DNA of 39,066 bases from Candidatus Saccharimonadota bacterium (GTDB lineage: Bacteria > Patescibacteriota > Saccharimonadia > Saccharimonadales > Saccharimonadaceae): positions 1 to 39,066 of the forward strand of contig JAFWMO010000018.1 in the NCBI GenBank assembly GCA_017510705.1, written 5' to 3'. The first letter of the stretch is position 1, and each line of letters opens with the position of its first letter. Below the pieces are notes generated by a model. That model searched no databases and was not told the origin of the DNA. It worked only from the letters and a program-made list of their open reading frames with translations. The translations under genes and the position numbers were made by a program. Positions 8,106 to 29,439 of the stretch are shown piece by piece.

Positions 8106-9556
8106 GGTCTTTCAGATTTTAATCTCTCTAGAAACCAGCCTGGATTTTCCATTACCCGCGTTTGCATATTCGCATCATATACCGTTGGCACTACTTGGGT
8201 TTGGAGTAATTTACCATTATAAAAATAGTGAGAAAGTATCAAGCTCCTAGTAGTACCAGGCCACCAAACTTGGTCAAAGAAAAGGTTACCAAGACCATAA
8301 TATATTGCACCGTTGCCATATAATTCATAAGTTTGTGGCTGGTGCGCAGAAGTGCCAACTACTACGTCTGCACCTAGATCAATGAGGTGTCTGAAAAATC
8401 CAATTTGGTCTCCAGCCGAAGACCCAGCAAAATCGCAAAAAGTTTCCTCCTCGTCCGACACATAAAAGCTACACTCATAATATTGGATATCTACGATCAC
8501 AAAATCACCACGTGCTTTGGCGGCAAAAATTTCGCTAGATGCATTTTCTTCATAATATTGATTTGCTCCGGGATAATCACCGGTTGTCGCTCCACCAGTA
8601 GACTGGTTGTAAGCGAGCATTGTAATATTAGTATTCTTTTCGCTAAGATTTAGTGGCACGGCTGCTTCTGTAGCATTCTTGCCGCCACCCACAATTTTGA
8701 TGCCATTATTATTGTATATGTCTATGGTATTATTAGCCGAATCTATCCCGCAATCCACATTGTGATTACCAGTAAGCTCCACTACATCTAGACCAATAGC
8801 AGTAAGCGTATTAATAAATCTTCCATCCGAACAAATATTTCTTGCATTTGCAAAATCCGAAAATGAAGATTCGTTTGACGTATGCGTAATATCAAAACTA
8901 GATAGATAATCTTTGATGTTAGCTGCAAAAAATGTCGCATCACCTATTTCGTATAATTTTTGATTCATCCCACGTGACATTGCCGTAACTCCTGTTTGCG
9001 CAAAAGTAAGGACTTTGTCTTTAGTTGGGTATTCACGCGCAAAAGCTTCGTTCACTAGTGGTTTTATTTCTTCATCAAATTTTTCCGATTCAAATTTCAC
9101 AACGTGAAAAACTGCACCAGTATCAAAATCATCAAGGTAGTATTTGTCATTTATAGAAAGCAATTTTTGTTTAAAATCAAGGTCGTCAATATCTATTAAT
9201 TTATAACTACATTCCGCGCAATTATTAAACAGTTCATCCACATTCTCTACTGCGACATTTGTCTCACTGCTATAAAAATCCACCACTGGTACATATATAT
9301 TATATATATACTCATTTTCTTTGATCTCTGGACGATTAAGTGTATTGTAGCTAGAAATTGTTACATCCTTGTCTAAAACTACATCTTCTGTAAAAATAGT
9401 TTTAAGTTTGTTTGTCTCTTCTTCGCTCAAACTCTCATCATAATAAACTACACCAGGAATTTTAAATATACCAGTTTTAGTAAAAAATTGAATGCCAAAA
9501 AACACCCCAGCGCCAATTACTGCAAACAAGCATAAACTACAAATTACTTTTTTCAT
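8102..9556 (-). CDS. capA: CapA-family (PGA_cap) metallophosphatase-like protein
   Basis: This 484-aa protein has an N-terminal membrane segment (about residues 4-25), a poorly conserved region (about 30-190), and a CapA/PGA_cap domain at the C-terminal half. Diagnostic motifs are VELTGNHNVD, GTSAHQPQTYE and YYGLGNLFFDQ. CapA proteins belong to the calcineurin-like phosphoesterase fold and take part in poly-gamma-glutamate or other surface-polymer assembly; no capB/capC partners are present, so the polymer is unknown. The start codon lies 6 nt after TATAAT and has no SD, so the mRNA should be leaderless. The gene shares a 22-bp intergenic promoter with the divergent GH97 gene. Its stop overlaps the CAP gene stop. 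Confidence 0.87.
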   Translation of the reverse strand: MKKVICSLCLFAVIGAGVFFGIQFFTKTGIFKIPGVVYYDESLSEEETNKLKTIFTEDVVLDKDVTISSYNTLNRPEIKENEYIYNIYVPVVDFYSSETNVAVENVDELFNNCAECSYKLIDIDDLDFKQKLLSINDKYYLDDFDTGAVFHVVKFESEKFDEEIKPLVNEAFAREYPTKDKVLTFAQTGVTAMSRGMNQKLYEIGDATFFAANIKDYLSSFDITHTSNESSFSDFANARNICSDGRFINTLTAIGLDVVELTGNHNVDCGIDSANNTIDIYNNNGIKIVGGGKNATEAAVPLNLSEKNTNITMLAYNQSTGGATTGDYPGANQYYEENASSEIFAAKARGDFVIVDIQYYECSFYVSDEEETFCDFAGSSAGDQIGFFRHLIDLGADVVVGTSAHQPQTYELYGNGAIYYGLGNLFFDQVWWPGTTRSLILSHYFYNGKLLQTQVVPTVYDANMQTRVMENPGWFLERLKSERP

Positions 9557-9578
9557 AGTTTTATTATATAATATTTAT
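9557..9578. promoter_or_regulatory. 22-bp bidirectional leaderless promoter
   Basis: Two -10 boxes overlap by 2 bp: TATAAT on the minus strand at 9568-9563 and on the plus strand at 9567-9572. Each ends exactly 6 nt before an ATG (9556 minus, 9579 plus). Neither gene has an SD. Confidence 0.65.
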
Positions 9579-11534
9579 ATGTTCTGGTGGGCGAAAAAGC
9601 ACGACGAAGCCGAAAAAACCATCATTTCCCCAAATGGCCGCGTGGCTTGTAAGTTTTTGCTGAAAAACAACCAGGTTTTTTATAGTATCAAAAAAGATGA
9701 CCGTGATATCATACGCCAGTCAAAGCTCGGTTTTTTGATTTGCGGAGAAGAACCACTAGTTGATAATCTTCGCCTTATTCGCACGCAAACCAAAAAACAT
9801 ACCGAAACCATAGAAATGCTTTGGGGAGAAGACCGTTATATCAAAAATAATTATAATGAAATGGCCTTTTACCTGTCAGAAGACAAAAATTCTCGCCGCA
9901 TTTTTACTTTACGTTTCCGAGTTTTTGACGATGGCGTAGCTTTTCGCTACGAAATCCCACCTCAGCCAAATTTCCGTCGCATTACCATTGCGGATGAACT
10001 TACCGAGTTTAATCTTAGTCCCAATACTACCGTCTGGAAAATCCCAGCTTATCAACCAGACCGCTACGAATATAATTACGAAAAATGTCGAGTCTATGAT
10101 TTGTCTAATTCCGTACACACACCTCTCACTATGCGCACAGAAAATGGCTATTACCTTAGCATCCATGAAGCTGCCCTCTATAATTATGGTTCAATGACAA
10201 TCAAATTAAATGAGAACGGTATTTTGAAATCCGACATTACGCCGCTTTCCGACGGCACCAAGGCGCACGTAGATTTGCCATTCCAGACCCCATGGCGTCT
10301 AATTATGCTAGCCGATAGTGCTATTGGGCTTACTATGAATCGCGTTATGTATGCCCTAAACGATCCTCCAGCGCAAGATTTTAGTTGGGTAAAAACACTC
10401 AAGTTTATTGGTATCTGGTGGGCAATGTATGTAGGTGAGTGGACTTGGGCTCCGGGCGATCGTCATGGCGCCACTACGGCTCATGCCAAAGAATATATTG
10501 ATGCCGCAATAAGGCTAGGTATTTCTGGGCTCCTTATTGAGGGCTGGAACGAAGGCTGGGAAGGTGATTGGCTTGAAAATGGTATCAACAACAAATTTAC
10601 CGTTTCAACACCAGATTTTGATTTGGAAGAAGTTGCACGCTATGCCTCGCAGCACAACATAGAGCTAGTCGGTCACCACGAAACTGTTGGTTTTGTTGAT
10701 AATTACGAGAACCAATTAGAGAATGCCTACAACTATTACGCCCTAAACCATATTAATTATATCAAAACTGGTTATGCTGGCAGCATGATGACGATCAATG
10801 GCCGCAAAGAATATCACCATTCACAACTTGGCGTCAATCATTATCAAAAAACCGTAGAACTTGCCGCCAAAAAACATATCTGTCTGGACATCCACGAGCC
10901 GATCAAGGGCACTGGCATTGAGCGCACTTGGCCAAATCTATTAAGCCGTGAAGGTGCACGTGGGCAAGAGTATGAGGGCGGAGCACTTAGCCCTTCTCAT
11001 GCTTGTTTCTTGCCATATACCAGGTTGCTTTCTGGTGGCATGGACTACACCAATGGTATTTTAGATATCGCAAACAGCGTTAAACGTATCGCTACCACTA
11101 TCACTCGTCAAGCCGCTTATTTTGTCACGATTTATTCTGGCATGGCCATGGCTGCCGACCGGCCGTTTATTTATGAAGAGCGCTTCCCTGATATCTTTAA
11201 ATTCATCCGTGATGTTCCGACTAATTTTGAAAAAACTATTGCTCTAGCTGGCGAAATTGGTGGATACTATGTAGTGGCTAGAAAAGATCGTGATAGCGAC
11301 AATTGGTATATCGGCGGGGTGACAGACGAAACTCCACGTCGCGTCTTGATTGATTTGGATTTCCTAGACAACGGAGTTTACGCTGCCGAAATCTACACCG
11401 ACTCGCCTGACGCTCATTTCCGTGAGAATCCTTTTGGATATGAAATTTCAAAAAAACATGTCGGCAAAAACGATCGTCTAGATATTTATATGGCACCAGG
11501 TGGTGGGTTTGCCGTTAGACTAGTTCGGCAGTAA
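9579..11534 (+). CDS. GH97-family alpha-glucosidase/galactosidase-like enzyme
   Basis: This 651-aa protein spans the full GH97 length: an N-terminal beta-sandwich (about 1-260), a (beta/alpha)8 barrel (about 270-545) and a C-terminal beta domain. Matching motifs are WKIPAYQPDRYEYNYE, LLIEGWNEGW, the HHETVGFVDNYE loop, DIHEPIKGTGIERTWPN and LLSREGARGQEYEGG, which carry the conserved metal- and acid-binding glutamates. GH97 enzymes remove alpha-linked glucose or galactose. No signal peptide is visible with the ATG at 9579, which argues for cytosolic action unlike the periplasmic SusB. That ATG was chosen because it lies 6 nt after TATAAT and longer reading upstream overlaps capA. The 3' end overlaps the convergent sortase gene by 20 nt. 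Confidence 0.88.
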   Translation: MFWWAKKHDEAEKTIISPNGRVACKFLLKNNQVFYSIKKDDRDIIRQSKLGFLICGEEPLVDNLRLIRTQTKKHTETIEMLWGEDRYIKNNYNEMAFYLSEDKNSRRIFTLRFRVFDDGVAFRYEIPPQPNFRRITIADELTEFNLSPNTTVWKIPAYQPDRYEYNYEKCRVYDLSNSVHTPLTMRTENGYYLSIHEAALYNYGSMTIKLNENGILKSDITPLSDGTKAHVDLPFQTPWRLIMLADSAIGLTMNRVMYALNDPPAQDFSWVKTLKFIGIWWAMYVGEWTWAPGDRHGATTAHAKEYIDAAIRLGISGLLIEGWNEGWEGDWLENGINNKFTVSTPDFDLEEVARYASQHNIELVGHHETVGFVDNYENQLENAYNYYALNHINYIKTGYAGSMMTINGRKEYHHSQLGVNHYQKTVELAAKKHICLDIHEPIKGTGIERTWPNLLSREGARGQEYEGGALSPSHACFLPYTRLLSGGMDYTNGILDIANSVKRIATTITRQAAYFVTIYSGMAMAADRPFIYEERFPDIFKFIRDVPTNFEKTIALAGEIGGYYVVARKDRDSDNWYIGGVTDETPRRVLIDLDFLDNGVYAAEIYTDSPDAHFRENPFGYEISKKHVGKNDRLDIYMAPGGGFAVRLVRQ

Positions 11535-12006
11535 TAATTAACCGGTGCGAAGCATCACCATTGTCATATAGCTCACCAGCACAAGTCATCAGCACCAAGG
11601 TATCTTCCTTGGCTGGAGCCAAGATTTTATCCATATCTATATCGGCCTTTTCCAAGACTTCAATTTTTTTGGTAACATATTTTTTATCGTTATATTCTAT
11701 CTCATCATTTAATTCTACATTTTTCAAATTTTCAAACGCCGTGGTAGAATGCCCCACAAGTAATGTTTTATTCTCAGCGCGCGAAAAACTTCCCACAATA
11801 TAATCCGGTGTCACAATTTTATGATTTAGCAAATGAGTTTTTGTCACATAAGAAGATAATTCTATATTTTGTATAGTAAGTTTTGTGAAAATTTCATACT
11901 CTTGCGCACTAGCCAAGTGATGGTAATTCAAGAAACAAAACGTACAGATCGCAAAACATATCGTTGCAATTATCACACGGAAGTCAAAACGTTTCCTAAT
12001 CTCCAC
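11515..12006 (-). CDS. Sortase family transpeptidase
   Basis: This 163-aa sortase has an N-terminal membrane anchor (about residues 8-28) and the three catalytic landmarks: His in LLVGHSTTAF, Cys in LVLMTCAG and Arg in ASHRLIITAEL. Sortases cleave a sorting signal and attach surface proteins to the wall or to each other. The likely client in this window is the APDTG protein at 26553-28646. I place the start at the GTG (12006): AAGGAG lies 4 nt before it, while the more upstream ATG (12024) overlaps the TATAAT box and would precede the transcription start. The gene is divergent from the GHKL-like gene and its 3' end overlaps GH97. Confidence 0.85.
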   Translation of the reverse strand: MEIRKRFDFRVIIATICFAICTFCFLNYHHLASAQEYEIFTKLTIQNIELSSYVTKTHLLNHKIVTPDYIVGSFSRAENKTLLVGHSTTAFENLKNVELNDEIEYNDKKYVTKKIEVLEKADIDMDKILAPAKEDTLVLMTCAGELYDNGDASHRLIITAELV

Positions 12007-12010
12007 ACTA

Positions 12011-12063
12011 CTCCTTTTCTCCATTATAGCATAAGAACTAAAAAACTATGCTATAATTTTTTT
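12011..12063. promoter_or_regulatory. Divergent twin promoters (sortase / GHKL-like gene)
   Basis: The identical block TATGCTATAAT, an extended -10 of form TGC-TATAAT, occurs on both strands: minus with TATAAT at 12028-12023 and plus with TATAAT at 12052-12057. The plus copy lies 6 nt before the ATG at 12064 (leaderless). The minus copy precedes an AAGGAG SD (12016-12011) and a GTG. Confidence 0.65.
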
Positions 12064-21589: not shown

Positions 21590-21612
21590 TTTCCTCCAAA
21601 GTTATAAATACT

Positions 21613-21621
21613 ATTTTACCA
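21613..21621 (-). promoter_or_regulatory. Extended -10 promoter of gpsA-helicase
   Basis: On the minus strand TGG-TAAAAT precedes a leader of roughly 15-20 nt with a GGAGGA SD. It directly follows the terminator of the membrane-protein pair. Confidence 0.55.
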
Positions 21622-21622
21622 C

Positions 21623-21658
21623 AAAAATTCCCCGAGCGTTAAGCCCAGGGGATTTTTT
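21623..21658 (-). terminator. Terminator of the 129/150-aa membrane gene pair
   Basis: On the minus strand AAAAAATCCCC ... GGGGAATTTTT form the stem, with TTAA in the loop. It shares sequence with the terminators at 22572-22608 and 23027-23057. Confidence 0.7.
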
Positions 21659-21670
21659 AATTTCTTTAGT

Positions 21671-22123
21671 TTATTCCAATCTAGGGCTTGGCTCATCATC
21701 AAACCACTTCGTAATCACGTCTATGTCGCATCCGTTTTGCAAAGCGATTCTTTTGGCGGAATCCTCACCCCATTGCAAGTAATAGGAGACGAGTTTGTCC
21801 CTAAAGAAAGGGCCGAGCAGTATTTCCATAAAACCTAAAACAAATACAAAGACTAAACATATTACGAAGAATTGATTAGTAAAAAGATGCGTAATCCACG
21901 CTAAAGCAATTGCCAAGCTACAGCTGATCAACGATGTAAAAAAGAATACAAAGTTGAGTATAGTTTGGAGCATTGTAGCTTTTGTGTAATTAGACGTAAT
22001 GGAATTACTCTCTTTATCAAAGTAAAACCAATGATCGATTCGATAAGAGAGTACGCCAAAGAAGATGATAGACACAATCAAGTATAGCCCATCGACAATT
22101 AATAATAGATGCCAATAATTCAT
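21671..22123 (-). CDS. Small three-TM membrane protein, 150 aa
   Basis: I do not recognise this protein. It has three hydrophobic segments (about residues 5-26, 52-74 and 78-104), a polar stretch between the first two, and an acidic C-terminus ending GCDIDVITKWFDDEPSPRLE. It overlaps the upstream 129-aa gene as ATGA behind a GGAGGGG SD, so translation is probably coupled. It is one of four neighbouring proteins with the same three-TM layout (21671-23422). Confidence 0.75.
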   Translation of the reverse strand: MNYWHLLLIVDGLYLIVSIIFFGVLSYRIDHWFYFDKESNSITSNYTKATMLQTILNFVFFFTSLISCSLAIALAWITHLFTNQFFVICLVFVFVLGFMEILLGPFFRDKLVSYYLQWGEDSAKRIALQNGCDIDVITKWFDDEPSPRLE

Positions 22124-22509
22124 TCGCCCCTCCTTTTTAATTGAATACTTAAAGCTTTTTGCCTCATACCACTAACTTTAGTGAAAACCAAGTAAACGAT
22201 ATACCAATGCAACGCGATCGAAATAAGGACAATAAAATCATAAAGCACCATAGTGAAGAATTGATCATTTTTGCATAATTCCATCAACAATTGGGAACAG
22301 CAAATCTTAAGAATTAGATAATAAAACGCTTCAATTCCAGCAATAAAAATACGGTTATCCCTATTAAATCGAATAGAACAAAAACGCCCATCAATGCGCA
22401 CTGTCTCTGTAAAAAGTACAGCGCAGATTGCAGTAGTAATTAGCATTACTCCACCAATGATATATGGAATAAGCCAAACTAAAACTTCAGAAAAATTGTT
22501 AATTTGCAT
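22120..22509 (-). CDS. Small three-TM membrane protein, 129 aa
   Basis: I do not recognise this protein. It has three TM segments (about residues 8-33, 52-72 and 84-108), a basic loop after the first (VRIDGRFCSIRFNRDNR) and a basic C-terminus ending LKRRGE. It is preceded by TGG-TATAAT (22550-22542) and an AAGGAGGGGAG SD, and overlaps the 150-aa gene by 4 nt. Basic loops would face the cytosol. The layout resembles the two neighbours downstream of promoter copies at 22997 and 23497. Confidence 0.75.
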   Translation of the reverse strand: MQINNFSEVLVWLIPYIIGGVMLITTAICAVLFTETVRIDGRFCSIRFNRDNRIFIAGIEAFYYLILKICCSQLLMELCKNDQFFTMVLYDFIVLISIALHWYIVYLVFTKVSGMRQKALSIQLKRRGE

Positions 22510-22541
22510 ATTCTCCCCTCCTTAAGAATGAATTTTATATG

Positions 22542-22590
22542 ATTATACCATATAATTCCGCTTTTGGCAAGAAAAATCCCCGAGCGTTAA
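22542..22590 (-). repeat. Terminator-promoter repeat, copy 1
   Basis: This 49-bp block matches 22997-23045 at about 44 positions. Read on the minus strand it holds the 3' arm and T-tract of the previous gene's terminator (GGGGATTTTTCTTGCC), a spacer with AAAGCGGAAT, and the TGG-TATAAT promoter of the next gene. Confidence 0.8.
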
Positions 22591-22608
22591 CCGCTCAGGG
22601 AGTTTTTT
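22572..22608 (-). terminator. Terminator of the 122-aa gene (contains its stop)
   Basis: On the minus strand CCCTGAGCG-GTTAA-CGCTCGGGG is followed by ATTTTT. The TAA stop of the 122-aa gene lies in the loop, and its last codons form the 5' arm. Confidence 0.85.
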
Positions 22609-22955
22609 AATTTCTTAAGTCTGGCTTTTCCGGCCAGCGTCAATATCGTATACACCACCACAATATATGCCGCCAGAAGAACCGCCACTATGCCAGTGGC
22701 TACATACGGATATGCCTTATTGCCATCTACCAGCCACTCGGCATACGGTATCAGCACCGGGGTGCACGCAATGGCGCACATACCCATAAAAAAAGCGCAT
22801 ATGCCAGTAATTAGTTGCTTTTCAAACCTTGTTATTATTCTGATCCTTTTTCGTCCACGCACTTTCACGATACGGACAAAGAATAATGGGATAATGCCCA
22901 CTGCAACAAAGGTTACAAAGGCGAAAATCGCCGTAAAAATTGGAACGTACTTCAT
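22587..22955 (-). CDS. Small three-TM membrane protein, 122 aa
   Basis: I do not recognise this protein. Three TM segments (about residues 6-28, 46-70 and 82-108) frame a very basic loop (RIVKVRGRKRIRIITRFEKQ) and a basic tail (GKARLKKLKNSLSG). It has an AAGGAGGG SD, a TGG-TATAAT promoter (23005-22997) and its own terminator that includes the stop codon. Hydrophobic layout and length match the flanking 126-aa and 129-aa proteins, which suggests distant paralogy. Confidence 0.78.
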   Translation of the reverse strand: MKYVPIFTAIFAFVTFVAVGIIPLFFVRIVKVRGRKRIRIITRFEKQLITGICAFFMGMCAIACTPVLIPYAEWLVDGNKAYPYVATGIVAVLLAAYIVVVYTILTLAGKARLKKLKNSLSG

Positions 22956-22996
22956 ATAAATTCCCTCCTTTTTTATATGACAATCTACTACAATAT

Positions 22997-23045
22997 ATTA
23001 TACCACATCATTCCGCTTTTGGCAAGAAAAATCCCCCGGCCTTAA
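22997..23045 (-). repeat. Terminator-promoter repeat, copy 2
   Basis: This is the second copy of the 49-bp block at 22542-22590, with differences mainly in the TA/CA spacer and the terminator arm. It holds the terminator tail of the 126-aa gene and the promoter of the 122-aa gene. Confidence 0.8.
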
Positions 23046-23057
23046 CGGCCAGAGGAT
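23027..23057 (-). terminator. Terminator of the 126-aa gene (contains its stop)
   Basis: On the minus strand TCCTCTGGCC-GTTAA-GGCCGGGGGA is followed by TTTTT. The TAA stop of the 126-aa gene lies in the loop. Confidence 0.85.
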
Positions 23058-23422
23058 AAAAATTTTTCTTTTGTATTTTGGCCAAATTTATAAGCCAATC
23101 TAGAAAACCATACTATGATTCCGACGAAAATTGCTATAGCAATCAGCACAGACAATAAGACCCAAAAAGGATTTATGTCCGCTTCGGCGTAGCTCATAGA
23201 GAGACCTAGTAATTTTACAAAAGTACCGGTAAACACCGACATTAGTATAATGCCAACGCACTCAGCAATAATAGCGGAAATAACCACTATTTTCCCTGGC
23301 CTTCTCGTCCTTACCGTCCATTTTCTGGTCCATTTAGACCAAACTCGTTTTTTTGAGTTAAATCCGAAAATGAACCCACAGACTACAAACAATAAACAAA
23401 ACACAAAAAACAAAATCACCAT
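23042..23422 (-). CDS. Small three-TM membrane protein, 126 aa
   Basis: I do not recognise this protein. Three TM segments (about residues 2-20, 46-72 and 84-108) are separated by a strongly basic loop (SKKRVWSKWTRKWTVRTRRPGK); the tail is polar and basic (GQNTKEKFLSSGR). It is the first of the series and has the best promoter in the window (TTGACA, 17 bp, TATAAT). A 70-75-nt leader with alternative hairpins precedes an AGAGAGGG SD 8 nt before the ATG. It ends inside its own terminator. Confidence 0.78.
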   Translation of the reverse strand: MVILFFVFCLLFVVCGFIFGFNSKKRVWSKWTRKWTVRTRRPGKIVVISAIIAECVGIILMSVFTGTFVKLLGLSMSYAEADINPFWVLLSVLIAIAIFVGIIVWFSRLAYKFGQNTKEKFLSSGR

Positions 23423-23448
23423 ATCACTAACCCTCTCTTTCTAATTTT

Positions 23449-23525
23449 CTAAGCCTCCCTTGGAGGCTTAGTCCTCCATTACAAGCTTCACCTACCATTA
23501 TACCACATAAGCTTAAAAATGTCAA
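23449..23525 (-). promoter_or_regulatory. Consensus promoter and hairpin leader of the 126-aa gene
   Basis: On the minus strand TTGACA (23525-23520), a 17-bp spacer and TATAAT (23502-23497) with an upstream TGG form a near-perfect promoter; its -35 box overlaps the stop codon of the FKBP gene. In the leader, CTAAGCCTCC-AAG-GGAGGCTTAG is a perfect 10-bp stem (23471-23449). A second pairing, GGAGG-ACTAAG-CCTCC, uses the same CCTCC, so the two are mutually exclusive. A three-codon ORF (ATG GAG GAC TAA) overlaps the first GGAGG. Confidence 0.65.
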
Positions 23526-25576: not shown

Positions 25577-25906
25577 TTAAAACTCCAATCCTTCCTTGCG
25601 AGCTGCATCAGCTAAAGCGCTCATACGGCCTGCATATAATTTAGAACCACGGTCAAATACAACTTTCTTTACCTTGGCGGTCTTTGCCTTTTTGGCAATT
25701 TCTTCACCAATTTTAGCTGCTTTTTCCGTTTTGGTACCAGTCATTTTAGCGCCTACAGTAGTAGCATAGGCTAGAGTTACCTTCTTGTCATCATCAATGA
25801 TTTGAGCGGTAATGTGTAGGTTCGAAAAATGAACGGAGAGACGTGGACGCTCAGCGGTGCCATGGATTTTAGCACGGGTGCGGTTTGCTCTAAATACTTT
25901 ATTCAT
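25577..25906 (-). CDS. rplR: Ribosomal protein uL18
   Basis: This 109-aa protein is uL18, which binds 5S rRNA in the central protuberance. RPRLSVHFSNLHITAQIIDDD and the C-terminal FDRGSKLYAGRMSALADAARKEGLEF are characteristic. Its ATG shares one base with the rplF stop (TAATG), so translation is coupled. Confidence 0.96.
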   Translation of the reverse strand: MNKVFRANRTRAKIHGTAERPRLSVHFSNLHITAQIIDDDKKVTLAYATTVGAKMTGTKTEKAAKIGEEIAKKAKTAKVKKVVFDRGSKLYAGRMSALADAARKEGLEF

Positions 25907-26442
25907 TATTTCTTTCCTGCCTTTCCAGCCTTACGGATGATAACTTCATCAACATATTTAATACCTTTACCCTTGTATGGCTCAGGTTTCTTGAGGCTGC
26001 GGATTTCAGCAGCAACTTGGCCGACTTTTTGCTTATCGATACCACTTACTGTGATTTCCATCTTATTAGTTGCAAGATCAACGCCTTCTGGAGCTTTGTA
26101 TTTCACAGGGTGTGAAAAACCAAGTGCCATTTCAATTTCCTTGCCACCACCTGACAAACGAAAACCTACACCGTTGATTTCTAGTTTTTTCTCGTAACCT
26201 TTGGTCACACCAACAACAGCGTTGTTTAGAAGAGCGCGTTGTAGGCCGTGCCAAGCACGAGATTTTGGCTCGTCATCCTCACGGGTAACGGTAGCCGTAG
26301 TACCTTCGACTGTAACTTTAGTCTTAGGCTGAACCGGAACAATGAGAGTGCCCTTAGGCCCTGCGACAGTAATCTCTTTGTCGCCGACCGTAATTGTCAC
26401 TCCTGCCGGAATTTCGATAGGTTGTTTTCCGATACGACTCAT
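25906..26442 (-). CDS. rplF: Ribosomal protein uL6
   Basis: This 178-aa protein is uL6 (MSRIGKQPIEIPAGVTITV; C-terminal RSLKKPEPYKGKGIKYVDEV). It is now the first gene of a separate unit, because the surface-protein gene intervenes between rpsH and rplF. It has its own promoter (TGA-TATAAT, 26480-26472) and a GGGAAAG SD. Confidence 0.96.
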   Translation of the reverse strand: MSRIGKQPIEIPAGVTITVGDKEITVAGPKGTLIVPVQPKTKVTVEGTTATVTREDDEPKSRAWHGLQRALLNNAVVGVTKGYEKKLEINGVGFRLSGGGKEIEMALGFSHPVKYKAPEGVDLATNKMEITVSGIDKQKVGQVAAEIRSLKKPEPYKGKGIKYVDEVIIRKAGKAGKK

Positions 26443-26471: not shown

Positions 26472-26480
26472 ATTATATCA
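26472..26480 (-). promoter_or_regulatory. Promoter of rplF-rplR-rpsE-rplO
   Basis: On the minus strand TGA-TATAAT precedes a leader of about 23 nt with a GGGAAAG SD. It resembles the rplC promoter (also TGA-TATAAT), which may keep the two halves of the split cluster in balance. Confidence 0.65.
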
Positions 26481-26502
26481 CAAAAATCTTCAAAAAACAA
26501 GC

Positions 26503-26530
26503 AAAATCCCCTGCAAAAACAGGGGATTTT
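26503..26530 (-). terminator. Terminator of the surface-protein gene
   Basis: AAAATCCCCTG ... CAGGGGATTTT form an 11-bp perfect stem with a 6-nt loop and T-tract, between the surface-protein stop (26553) and the rplF promoter. Confidence 0.85.
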
Positions 26531-26552
26531 ACCGTAACGATTGCGAGGCTAC

Positions 26553-28646
26553 TTAGTTCTTTCTAGCATTTATCTTTCTCGTTATAAATATAAAGCTAGA
26601 AATCATTGTAAGCGAACCGGCCACGATCGACGCAACAATTGTCGCACCCATTGCGGAACCACCTTGACGAGTTATCACGCCTGTATCTGGAGCTTTTGCG
26701 GTGTCTACGTAGGTTAATACAAATGTAGAATACTTATCACTTGTAATAGTAAACTTGCTTCCATCACGCACAAAATCAACTCTGGCGGCAGACGTTTCAC
26801 CGTCGATAGCATAATGTCCACGAATTACGCTAAATTCCCTAGTATAACCATCCGCTGGCTCGAGATCGATACTTGGAGCAAGAGATTCTAATGAAGTGTC
26901 TATTACAAATGGGAGTGGTGTATCCATCTCTAAAACATATCCTAGATATGTGCCATCAGATGAATAGATATCAGCATACACATCATACATAGCTAGAATC
27001 TTTTCGTTTTCGCCAAGTTCTGCCATGATTTTGTCGTGTGCATCGGCATACTCATATTCATCTTCATCATATTTGTAATCTACATAAAGCACCGTTTTTA
27101 TAGTTTGACCGCTAGCCAATCTCACTTTTAGATCATCGAGATTATTACTATTAAATGCAATCTTACCGTTAGTGGTTTTACCGCTTTTAAGCAACTCCGA
27201 TATTTGGCGACCCACAAAATCCGCCAGTACATTTTGGGACGTTTCGTCTATGTCGCTATTCTCACCAGGAGTAACCTCGTATACGACCACATTTATGTTG
27301 CGATCAATAGGATTCTTATAATTGTGCAAATTAAAGTTAATAAGACCAGAGCCAACCTTATCTGCAGTAATTGTGGTATCACTTAGGGTGGCTACATCAG
27401 ATGAATTCCCAAACGTACCATATTTCTTGGCAACTTCAGATAGTGTCACAGTCTCCGCCTCGCCAACTTGCAAAAAGAGGTTATCTGGCAAATCGACCGT
27501 CGTTTCTGCGTCCACAAAATATGGACCATCTGGGCCTTTATCATATTCATCATACCCATCAGCAATATAGGCGGTATTAACTTCGCTCGAATACTCACCA
27601 CCAGATATCGTCGTGACGATTTCATTATCCACTACACCAAAACCAGCTGCAGGATTTGGCACAATATCATGCGCATCTTCAATAAGACGAATCACATCAA
27701 CGCCAGCCTTGCTAGAAAAAGTACCGCCAGATATTTCGACGTTCATATCTTGTGCGATTTTGCCAGCATTCCATACTAGAAGCGCAGAACCATTTGCCGC
27801 AGAAATTTTACCACCAGTAATCTTTATATTCAATGAATTTCCATAGGTTGGGTTAGCGCTACTGTATTGACCTCCCTGAACAGCGATAGCGTCGCCAAGC
27901 CACGCATAGCCGTCCCCAAGATTGTAGTAATCTTCGAGAGCATCAAGGCCACTAGCCGAGGCAATTCCATTAATTGTACCGCCAGTTATTTCAATCTGGC
28001 CCATCTTTACATAAATACCACCGTTTAATGTCCCACCAGAAATCTTCAAATTAACTTGAGAAGGCATAAACACTGTTTGGTATTGTGATTTTAGTTCTCC
28101 ACCGGACATAATAAAGTTCATATCACCAGTTGTATTATTGCCACCAACCGCAGCACCATAACTTGCAGTAGTATCAACTACGCCACCAGTCATATTCAAC
28201 GTCGACCCTCCAAAAATATAAAAACCATAGCCGCTTCCATGTGCAAGCATCTTCAAAGTTCCACCTTTTAGATTTGCCGTTGCACCAGCTCCTAGCTCTA
28301 CAACATTTCCACCTTGAGCAAGTATTTCCCCATCCCCATCAATAGACACAATGGTGTTTGCGCCTTCAATGCTTAATGCAGAAAAATTACCAGAAGTAAT
28401 AGTTTTCCCAGTAATATCAATATCCATGCTGTCAGAAAATACAATCGTGTTTTTTAGGGTAATATCATTTACGGCTGAATTACCAATGCCAGCAATTAAA
28501 TCCGCGGCCGTCTCCGCAAAACAACTTGCACTCGTAATACCGGTTGCACAACGGATGCTTTCTTCCGCGAAGACATTAAGCGATGCAATTGCACCACAAA
28601 ATACCAACGCAAACATCGCATAACCTAAACGTTTATGTTTTACCAT
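26553..28646 (-). CDS. APDTG-sorted beta-helix surface protein
   Basis: This 697-aa protein has a signal peptide (about residues 1-28, ending SLNVFA). A repetitive beta-helix region follows (about 60-360), with recurring GGT/GGK turns such as MTGGVVDTT, ISGGTLNGG, ITGGTINGI and ISGGTFSSK. Less repetitive domains come next (about 370-640), then a C-terminal sorting signal: APDTG near residue 652, a hydrophobic helix and a basic tail (TRKINARKN). A sortase should cleave at APDTG and anchor the protein; one is encoded at 11515-12006. The start at 28646 is set by GGAGGT 3 nt before ATG; a longer reading frame upstream is not needed. The gene has its own promoter and terminator and sits inside the spc ribosomal operon. 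It is probably an adhesin. Confidence 0.85.
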   Translation of the reverse strand: MVKHKRLGYAMFALVFCGAIASLNVFAEESIRCATGITSASCFAETAADLIAGIGNSAVNDITLKNTIVFSDSMDIDITGKTITSGNFSALSIEGANTIVSIDGDGEILAQGGNVVELGAGATANLKGGTLKMLAHGSGYGFYIFGGSTLNMTGGVVDTTASYGAAVGGNNTTGDMNFIMSGGELKSQYQTVFMPSQVNLKISGGTLNGGIYVKMGQIEITGGTINGIASASGLDALEDYYNLGDGYAWLGDAIAVQGGQYSSANPTYGNSLNIKITGGKISAANGSALLVWNAGKIAQDMNVEISGGTFSSKAGVDVIRLIEDAHDIVPNPAAGFGVVDNEIVTTISGGEYSSEVNTAYIADGYDEYDKGPDGPYFVDAETTVDLPDNLFLQVGEAETVTLSEVAKKYGTFGNSSDVATLSDTTITADKVGSGLINFNLHNYKNPIDRNINVVVYEVTPGENSDIDETSQNVLADFVGRQISELLKSGKTTNGKIAFNSNNLDDLKVRLASGQTIKTVLYVDYKYDEDEYEYADAHDKIMAELGENEKILAMYDVYADIYSSDGTYLGYVLEMDTPLPFVIDTSLESLAPSIDLEPADGYTREFSVIRGHYAIDGETSAARVDFVRDGSKFTITSDKYSTFVLTYVDTAKAPDTGVITRQGGSAMGATIVASIVAGSLTMISSFIFITRKINARKN

Positions 28647-28650
28647 TTTA

Positions 28651-28674
28651 CCTCCATTTAATACTTCTATTATA
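28651..28674 (-). promoter_or_regulatory. Promoter and SD of the surface-protein gene
   Basis: On the minus strand TATAAT (28674-28669) lies about 22 nt before the ATG, with GGAGGT as SD. No TGN extension is present. Confidence 0.6.
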
Positions 28675-28706
28675 ATGCTCGTGGCAAAATAAAACAATAG
28701 CAAAAT

Positions 28707-28740
28707 GCAACAAAAAATCTCCAAAAGGAGATTTTTTGCA
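28707..28740 (-). terminator. Terminator after rpsH
   Basis: AAAAAATCTCC-AAAA-GGAGATTTTTT is an 11-bp perfect stem with a T-tract, 12 nt after the rpsH stop. It closes the first ribosomal unit (rplC-rpsH). Confidence 0.9.
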
Positions 28741-28751
28741 CAGTTTGTTTT

Positions 28752-29153
28752 TTACCAAACTTTTACTAGAATTTCGCCGCCGAGACTATTTTTCTTAGCA
28801 TCACGACCAGTCATCAAACCTTTAGAAGTGGACACAATGACTGCACCACGGCCAGATTTAATGGTTGGGATTTCAGCTGCAGCAGAGTAAACTCTACGGC
28901 CTGGTTTTGAAACTTTGGTAATCTCGTTGATTTTGGCAATAGTACCTGGCTCGTTAATTACAACGCGAAGAATGCCACGTGGCTTTCCATCTTCTACTGT
29001 GTAAGAAGCAAGATAGCCATTCTTTACTAAAATCTCTACGATTGCTACTTTGAGTTTAGAAGTAGGAACGAGAATTTCAGTCTTGCCAGCACTTATCGCA
29101 TTACGAATACGCGTAAGCAGGTCAGCGATTTGATCAGTAGATTGTAACGACAT
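28752..29153 (-). CDS. rpsH: Ribosomal protein uS8
   Basis: This 133-aa protein is uS8, which binds the central domain of 16S rRNA. DQIADLLTRIRNAISAGK begins the first domain, and the C-terminal VIVSTSKGLMTGRDAKKNSLGGEILVKVW contains the conserved STSKG RNA-binding loop. It is the last gene of the upstream ribosomal unit; a terminator and a foreign-looking surface-protein gene follow instead of rplF. Confidence 0.96.
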   Translation of the reverse strand: MSLQSTDQIADLLTRIRNAISAGKTEILVPTSKLKVAIVEILVKNGYLASYTVEDGKPRGILRVVINEPGTIAKINEITKVSKPGRRVYSAAAEIPTIKSGRGAVIVSTSKGLMTGRDAKKNSLGGEILVKVW

Positions 29154-29169: not shown

Positions 29170-29439
29170 CTACCAGCTACTCTTAGTTACACCTGGGATT
29201 TCGCCTTTAGAAGCTTTTTCCCTAAAGTTAATACGGCTTAGGCCAAAACGGCGCATATAGCCACGTGGACGACCATCCAACATGTCACGATTTTTGAGAC
29301 GAGTTGGTGACGCGTTACGTGGGAGCTTTTGAAGACCTTCTAGGTCACCAGCAGCTTTTAGTTCTGCACGCTTGGCAGCATATTTTTCATACATTTTGCG
29401 ACGCTTTTCGTCACGAAGAACTGCAGATTTCTTAGCCAT
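29170..29439 (-). CDS. rpsN: Ribosomal protein uS14 (zinc-free type)
   Basis: This 89-aa protein is uS14 of the long, cysteine-free type ([36 protein letters not shown]). The zinc-binding CxxC pairs of the short form are absent, as in bL33 of this window. Spacing to rplE is 1 nt. Confidence 0.96.

Follow-up and report, generated by a model that had tools for sequence, protein, structure and literature searches.

A candidate hypervariable surface-gene locus inside the spc ribosomal operon of a Saccharimonadaceae genus

Organization of the rpsH-rplF Locus

Few bacterial gene orders are as conserved as that of the S10-spc ribosomal-protein cluster. In the stretch of DNA analyzed here (39,066 nt, hereafter the window), which is contig C8 of a draft genome (658 kb, 91% complete) of a Candidatus Saccharimonadota bacterium, this cluster lies on the minus strand, as do the features described below unless stated otherwise. 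The gene rpsN (29170-29439) is located upstream of rpsH (28752-29153), which encodes S8 (PF00410, 2.4e-38; NF001109, 140.3 bits) and forms the upstream conserved flank of the locus, while rplF (25906-26442), encoding L6 (TIGR03654, 229.9 bits), forms the downstream conserved flank and is followed by rplR, rpsE, and rplO. In bacteria the two flanking genes nearly always adjoin each other. Here, between them and on the same strand, an open reading frame at 26553-28646 with its ATG at 28646 encodes a 697-aa protein that reads as a sortase-type surface protein with an APDTG motif. The original prediction was correct about the ORF, its strand, its neighbors, and its coordinates.

The surface gene appears to be a transcription unit of its own. 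An intrinsic terminator of 13 pairs (28710-28739) was found by a terminator scan directly after rpsH and would close the transcription unit running from S10 to rpsH. It is followed by a putative promoter, TTGTTT-N17-TATAAT (28669-28697, -10 at 28669-28674), and by a GGAGG Shine-Dalgarno sequence (28651-28655), both read from the sequence. Beyond the gene lies a second predicted terminator of 15 pairs (26500-26533), and then a putative rplF promoter, again TTGTTT-N17-TATAAT (26472-26500, -10 at 26472-26477, extended TG). The scan gave 32 terminator sites, compared to 14.0 +/- 4.1 in shuffled sequences. Both promoters score under the scan threshold; the one before rplF is supported by its conservation in the genus, described below. 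The proposals that the surface gene has its own promoter, Shine-Dalgarno sequence, and terminator, and that each ribosomal half has its own terminator or promoter, thus hold up. An Rfam search returned no RNA element at the junction and a single tRNA as its sole match in the window.

Several observations were made elsewhere in the cluster and the window. The gene secY was not found after rplO (below 24448), nor in the related loci L073-L075, and is retained downstream of rplO in the sister-clade loci L076-L079. A 53-nt repeat at 22542-23525 (minus strand), with a third copy near 21594-21670, contains near-consensus promoters (12/12 and 11/12 consensus matches) and hairpin terminators and separates small membrane-protein ORFs (21671-23422), an arrangement that resembles tandem self-contained gene cassettes. 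On the plus strand, a 680-aa protein (9492-11534) is encoded end to end with a sortase gene; its resemblance to the NCBIfam model for retaining alpha-galactosidase lies below the cut-off (240.7 of 800 bits).

The 697-aa Window Protein

The N-terminus of the window protein (MVKHKRLGYAMFALVFCGAIASLNVFA) has a hydrophobic core according to inspection and hydropathy and resembles a signal peptide over about residues 1-27 (28566-28646). At the C-terminus the APDTG sorting motif (residues 652-656; 26679-26693) precedes a hydrophobic stretch and a positively charged tail ending in NARKN, and P653, G656, and T659 are invariant among 19 aligned relatives (alignment A1). The genome encodes two sortases (PF04203), one in the window (11515-12024, minus strand; 45.8 bits at 11518-11799) and a second copy on contig C5, and a PF04203 sortase is present in 30/30 genomes of the genus. 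With a signal peptide, a sorting signal, and a genomic sortase in place, the protein is predicted to be sortase-anchored, and either of the two sortases can, by prediction, anchor it.

An AlphaFold model computed without an alignment is informative for the N-domain alone, with moderate confidence: pLDDT is mostly 60-80 and drops in some stretches. The predicted fold of residues 45-312 (27711-28514) resembles a right-handed beta-helix; among the best structural matches, all of them weak (best E = 0.026), beta-helix proteins predominate, and the match to Pectate_lyase_5 (PF20585) is below the cut-off of that family (16.8 vs 24.3 bits, E = 0.008), to which the protein is therefore not assigned. 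It may work like a beta-helix adhesin. Because the beta-helix matches are non-significant and the Pectate_lyase_5 score is below its cut-off, we infer the adhesin role from protein architecture and genomic context. The cluster to which the protein belongs (468-787 aa, pairwise identity 23-61%) occurs at this locus in 17 genomes, 16 besides the window, and strong matches in a profile search (E<1e-50) are confined to the rpsH-rplF locus. In G089 an 80-aa ORF at the locus has a start resembling that of this protein family and is possibly the remnant of a deletion.

Occupancy of the Junction in the Genus and Beyond

The positions of rpsH and rplF were compared in whole genomes, one per species and nearly all of them drafts; in the other families of the order, the two genes were searched as single genes. 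Genomes of the genus were regarded as resolved (n = 62) when a single contig carried both genes, in order and no more than 30 kb apart. In 53 of these, more than 300 bp separate the two genes (range 0.5 to 27.7 kb); in the remaining nine the gap measures 21-171 bp. In two further genomes of the genus, rpsH and rplF are displaced by 55-72 kb. Gaps of more than 300 bp occur in 27/95 genomes in the rest of the taxonomic family, in 0/108 genomes of the other families of the order (maximum 278 bp), and in 0/63 loci of Firmicutes and other bacteria (maximum 252 bp). The adjoining junctions of the genus loci themselves are tight (rpsN-rpsH 14-22 bp, n = 64; rplF-rplR 2 bp, n = 61), and among 14 other junctions at 33 loci of the family a gap above 300 bp was found once (G060). 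Inserts are also present at the junction in two single-contig genomes of the family, G105 (1.7 kb) and G117 (1.2 kb), indicating that they are not only effects of draft assembly. The same pattern is seen in named relatives, Candidatus Saccharibacteria metagenome-assembled genomes, several of which are from ruminant gut (L073-L079). In one of these loci, L076, rpsH is absent within 10 kb of rplF and rpsB- and tsf-like ORFs lie upstream of rplF instead, which suggests that rearrangements, too, have their breakpoint at this junction.

The synteny comparison that the original prediction had called for shows that the gene is not universal at the junction, so that it is an accessory surface gene, as had been supposed, and not one ancestral to the phylum. 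An ancestral origin is rejected on the absence of gaps above 300 bp in the other families of the order and on the lack of relatives of the gene in 120 sampled genomes of the family, where a single-sequence search found an anchor fragment at most. The view of the gene as a singular, rare intrusion has to be given up, since different DNA occupies the site throughout most of the resolved genomes, and the division into two transcription units is a property of the whole genus and of a sister genus, g11. Any benefit to an adhesin from a highly expressed place near the replication origin, as the original prediction proposed, would be conjectural.

This division can be followed in the regulatory sequences. 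A TAnAAT motif is located 25-50 nt before the rplF ATG in 59/64 loci of the genus, including most of the near-empty ones, and it is also found in g11, whose members carry inserts; no such motif turned up at small-gap loci from other genera, as far as their start had been correctly read. A strict terminator follows rpsH in at least 41 of 65 genus loci. Taken with the terminators, the presence of the motif in near-empty loci and in g11 indicates that splitting of the operon came first, or at an early stage, and that the junction then became tolerant; with a promoter before rplF, cargo can change without silencing the downstream operon.

Cargo Carried at the Junction

Intervals were read from 66 genomes of the genus, in which 24 loci carry anchored proteins, nine loci a polysaccharide operon, six loci both, 16 loci other cargo, and two loci rpoBC-type genes, with nine loci empty. 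In the surface loci 95% of the coding length is on the operon strand. The large adhesin-like proteins that were scanned (868-2098 aa) contain VWA and Cna_B domains, and one an FctA-like domain. The polysaccharide operon encodes Wzz+BY-kinase-like, CpsB/CapC, LytR-CpsA-Psr, UDP-sugar dehydrogenase, and Polysacc_synt_2 proteins, and wzz and cpsB usually adjoin rplF. Genes for a SipW-like peptidase and TasA/camelysin-like proteins are present in three loci, G253 (L073), L075, and G062. Credible anchored proteins number 41 in 143,293 aa of interval and 0 in 35,101 aa outside, a rough comparison with a small background rich in core genes. The gene wzz is at the rpsH-rplF locus in 5/5 positive controls and is missing genome-wide in 24/26 species without a polysaccharide operon at the locus, a confinement which implies that the locus holds alternatives and not extra copies.

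The distribution of cargo differs between clades. On a tree of rpsH and rplF, cargo of the anchored or polysaccharide type is present in 32 of the 38 rows that make up the clade of the window. The sister clade (22 of the 60 tree rows) and other genera have cargo that is mostly not recognizable as surface genes and that includes uncharacterized proteins. Three sister-clade loci (L206 in G254, L195 in G289, and L200 in G334) contain an operon for ornithine carbamoyltransferase, arginine deiminase, and a DcuC-family antiporter. In G104, secY lies inside the gap (L037:8597-10003). Genes of the rpoBC type, recognized by size and sequence start, are present in the gap of two members of the genus, G308 (L168) and G248 (L194), and G060 (L035-L036), from a distant genus, has 35 kb in the gap with tuf- and rpoBC-type genes.

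Exchange of Cargo Between Species

Placing the cargo classes on the 60-row tree of rpsH and rplF takes 27 changes; the minimum would be 5, and shuffling gives a mean of 34.2. The classes are therefore only partly clustered. Sister species differ, as in G333 (polysaccharide) and G296 (anchored; SH-aLRT 100), and G001, the nearest relative of the window, has a polysaccharide operon at the locus. In three species pairs, near-identical cargo blocks lie beside rpsH genes that are 71-87% identical. The adhesin blocks of G116 and G244 share 96-100% nucleotide identity, compared to 78-89% for the S10-spc ribosomal genes, and when third codon positions are counted, identity falls from 95.6% in the block to 57.1% in the rpsH next to it; G062/G310 and G267/G294 have the same mosaic pattern. 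Such near-identical blocks adjoining a divergent rpsH indicate that cargo has moved between species. In the three pairs, no recombination tract was seen across rpsH or rplF; the near-identical blocks lie inside the cargo, so exchange could make use of homology within the cargo.

Alternative Explanations

A pattern of this kind might in principle arise from faulty assembly or binning, as most of the genomes are drafts and contigs often end at or near the junction (G001, G116, G277, G295, G336). However, the same architecture recurs in independent genomes, the window has its two flanks on a single contig, and the motif of the rplF promoter persists next to differing cargo. Misassembly is also made unlikely by the 16 other genomes with a relative of the protein at the site and by the inserts of G105 and G117; we give an artefact hardly any credence. 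A single, one-off insertion of a surface gene would agree with the 120 sampled genomes of the family in which the single-sequence search found no relative beyond an anchor fragment, but it is rejected as highly improbable, since in the genus at large the site holds relatives of the gene in some species and unrelated cargo in others. Recurrent occupation of one junction is also what a site-specific mobile element, an integrase or transposon with the junction as attachment site, would produce. Against this, no convincing terminal direct or inverted repeats frame the insert of the window, and neither integrase nor transposase was recognized in the cargo proteins scanned (a minority of all cargo proteins), and we consider this route improbable.

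A stronger competitor is that the junction is simply a permissive breakpoint, at which the own promoter of rplF lets any DNA land and surface genes dominate one clade through the fastest turnover, without dedicated swapping. The mostly non-surface cargo of the sister clade and other genera makes such permissiveness conceivable, and it is favored by the arginine deiminase-type operons of G254, G289, and G334 as non-surface cargo, by secY in the gap of G104 as the relocation of a core gene, by the rpoBC- and tuf-type genes of G248, G308, and G060, and by G257 and G268, where rplF and rpsH lie far apart. It fits less well with the window's own clade, where surface cargo predominates and is nearly always on the operon strand, with a window protein family strongly matched nowhere else, and with a wzz nearly confined to the locus. 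We regard it as a credible though less than even possibility. The main uncertainty lies between a site reserved for surface variation and one that is simply permissive.

Proposed Mechanism and Implications

The reading that we consider probable is that the rpsH-rplF junction is a cps-like hypervariable surface-gene cassette locus in the spc operon, whose cargo would be exchanged by recombination. The junction has conserved flanks and alternative, non-homologous cargo in relatives, and horizontal exchange is visible in the mosaic of near-identical blocks, as expected of hypervariable loci. The spc operon would be cut in two, with rpsH closed by a terminator and rplF started from its own promoter, and the DNA between the two units could come and go while the rplF half stays unsilenced. 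Species differ in what they hold there: a single sortase-anchored adhesin or two of them, a polysaccharide operon, adhesins and operon together, genes of the SipW/TasA type, or no cargo at all. The window protein would be one of these alternatives: after export, a sortase whose gene lies elsewhere would anchor it, and it would be displayed as a beta-helix adhesin. Homologous recombination, mediated by flanks or cargo, appears to be the most economical way of swapping; it may follow natural transformation and act through the conserved flanks. Natural transformation with recombination through homologous flanks of ~1 kb has been demonstrated in another, cultured Saccharibacterium, Southlakia epibionticum (PMC10633639). 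The cargo proteins may mediate contact with bacterial hosts or animal surfaces. A bolder extension, which we put forward as a speculation with the balance against it, is a dedicated identity locus of presumably epibiotic bacteria, where recombination swaps whole surface types (adhesin, fiber, or capsule-like coat) at one expressed site in a translation operon. Which host bacteria the cells attach to, or which phages they escape, would change accordingly.

It is unexpected that a genus should refill one junction of the S10-spc cluster with interchangeable surface genes, and a search of the open-licence literature found no earlier report of such a locus. The host choice of Patescibacteria and their switching between hosts are poorly known, and the cargo of the junction supplies concrete candidate contact genes for this choice, at a single PCR-accessible place for typing surface diversity. 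The locus is furthermore a case of interspecies cargo transfer among bacteria whose genomes are very small, and it suggests how the gain of a promoter within an operon can create an insertion site.

Comparison With Known Systems

In the pneumococcal capsule locus, cps is located between dexB and aliA. The rpsH-rplF junction resembles it in its conserved flanks, in the alternative polysaccharide clusters with Wzz/BY-kinase-, CpsB-, and LytR-CpsA-Psr-type genes that differ between relatives, and in belonging to a group able to undergo natural transformation. It differs in that the flanks are ribosomal-protein genes inside an operon, that the cargo may be adhesins instead of or alongside polysaccharide genes, and that the variation is seen between species, each represented by one genome. 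Cassettes of anchored proteins are also found in the sortase/pilus (FCT) region of Streptococcus pyogenes and the pilus islands of group B streptococci. As at the junction, these cassettes occupy a single place on the chromosome, and their anchored proteins contain VWA, Cna_B, and FctA/Spy0128-like isopeptide domains; here, however, a sortase was not recognized inside the cassettes, the sortases are encoded elsewhere, and pilus polymerization would be conjectural. The SipW-like peptidase and TasA/camelysin-like genes of G253 (L073), L075, and G062 recall the SipW-TasA/camelysin fiber operons of Bacillus, from which they differ in being linked to an anchored protein within the spc operon; any fibers formed here would be hypothetical.

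Insertions into ribosomal clusters are known as well, for example nrdHEF between rplL and rsmC, with others between operons (PMC8046335). These resemble the present case in the insertion of genes into the same core operon cluster but, as far as the accessible text of that study goes, are separate events traced on a species tree, whereas here one junction, rpsH-rplF, is recurrently refilled with surface genes. By analogy with these systems, the position in the spc operon, the mixed adhesin, fiber, and polysaccharide cargo, and the host group would be the new elements of this locus, while conserved flanks, alternative surface cassettes, and exchange would place it among loci of a known kind.
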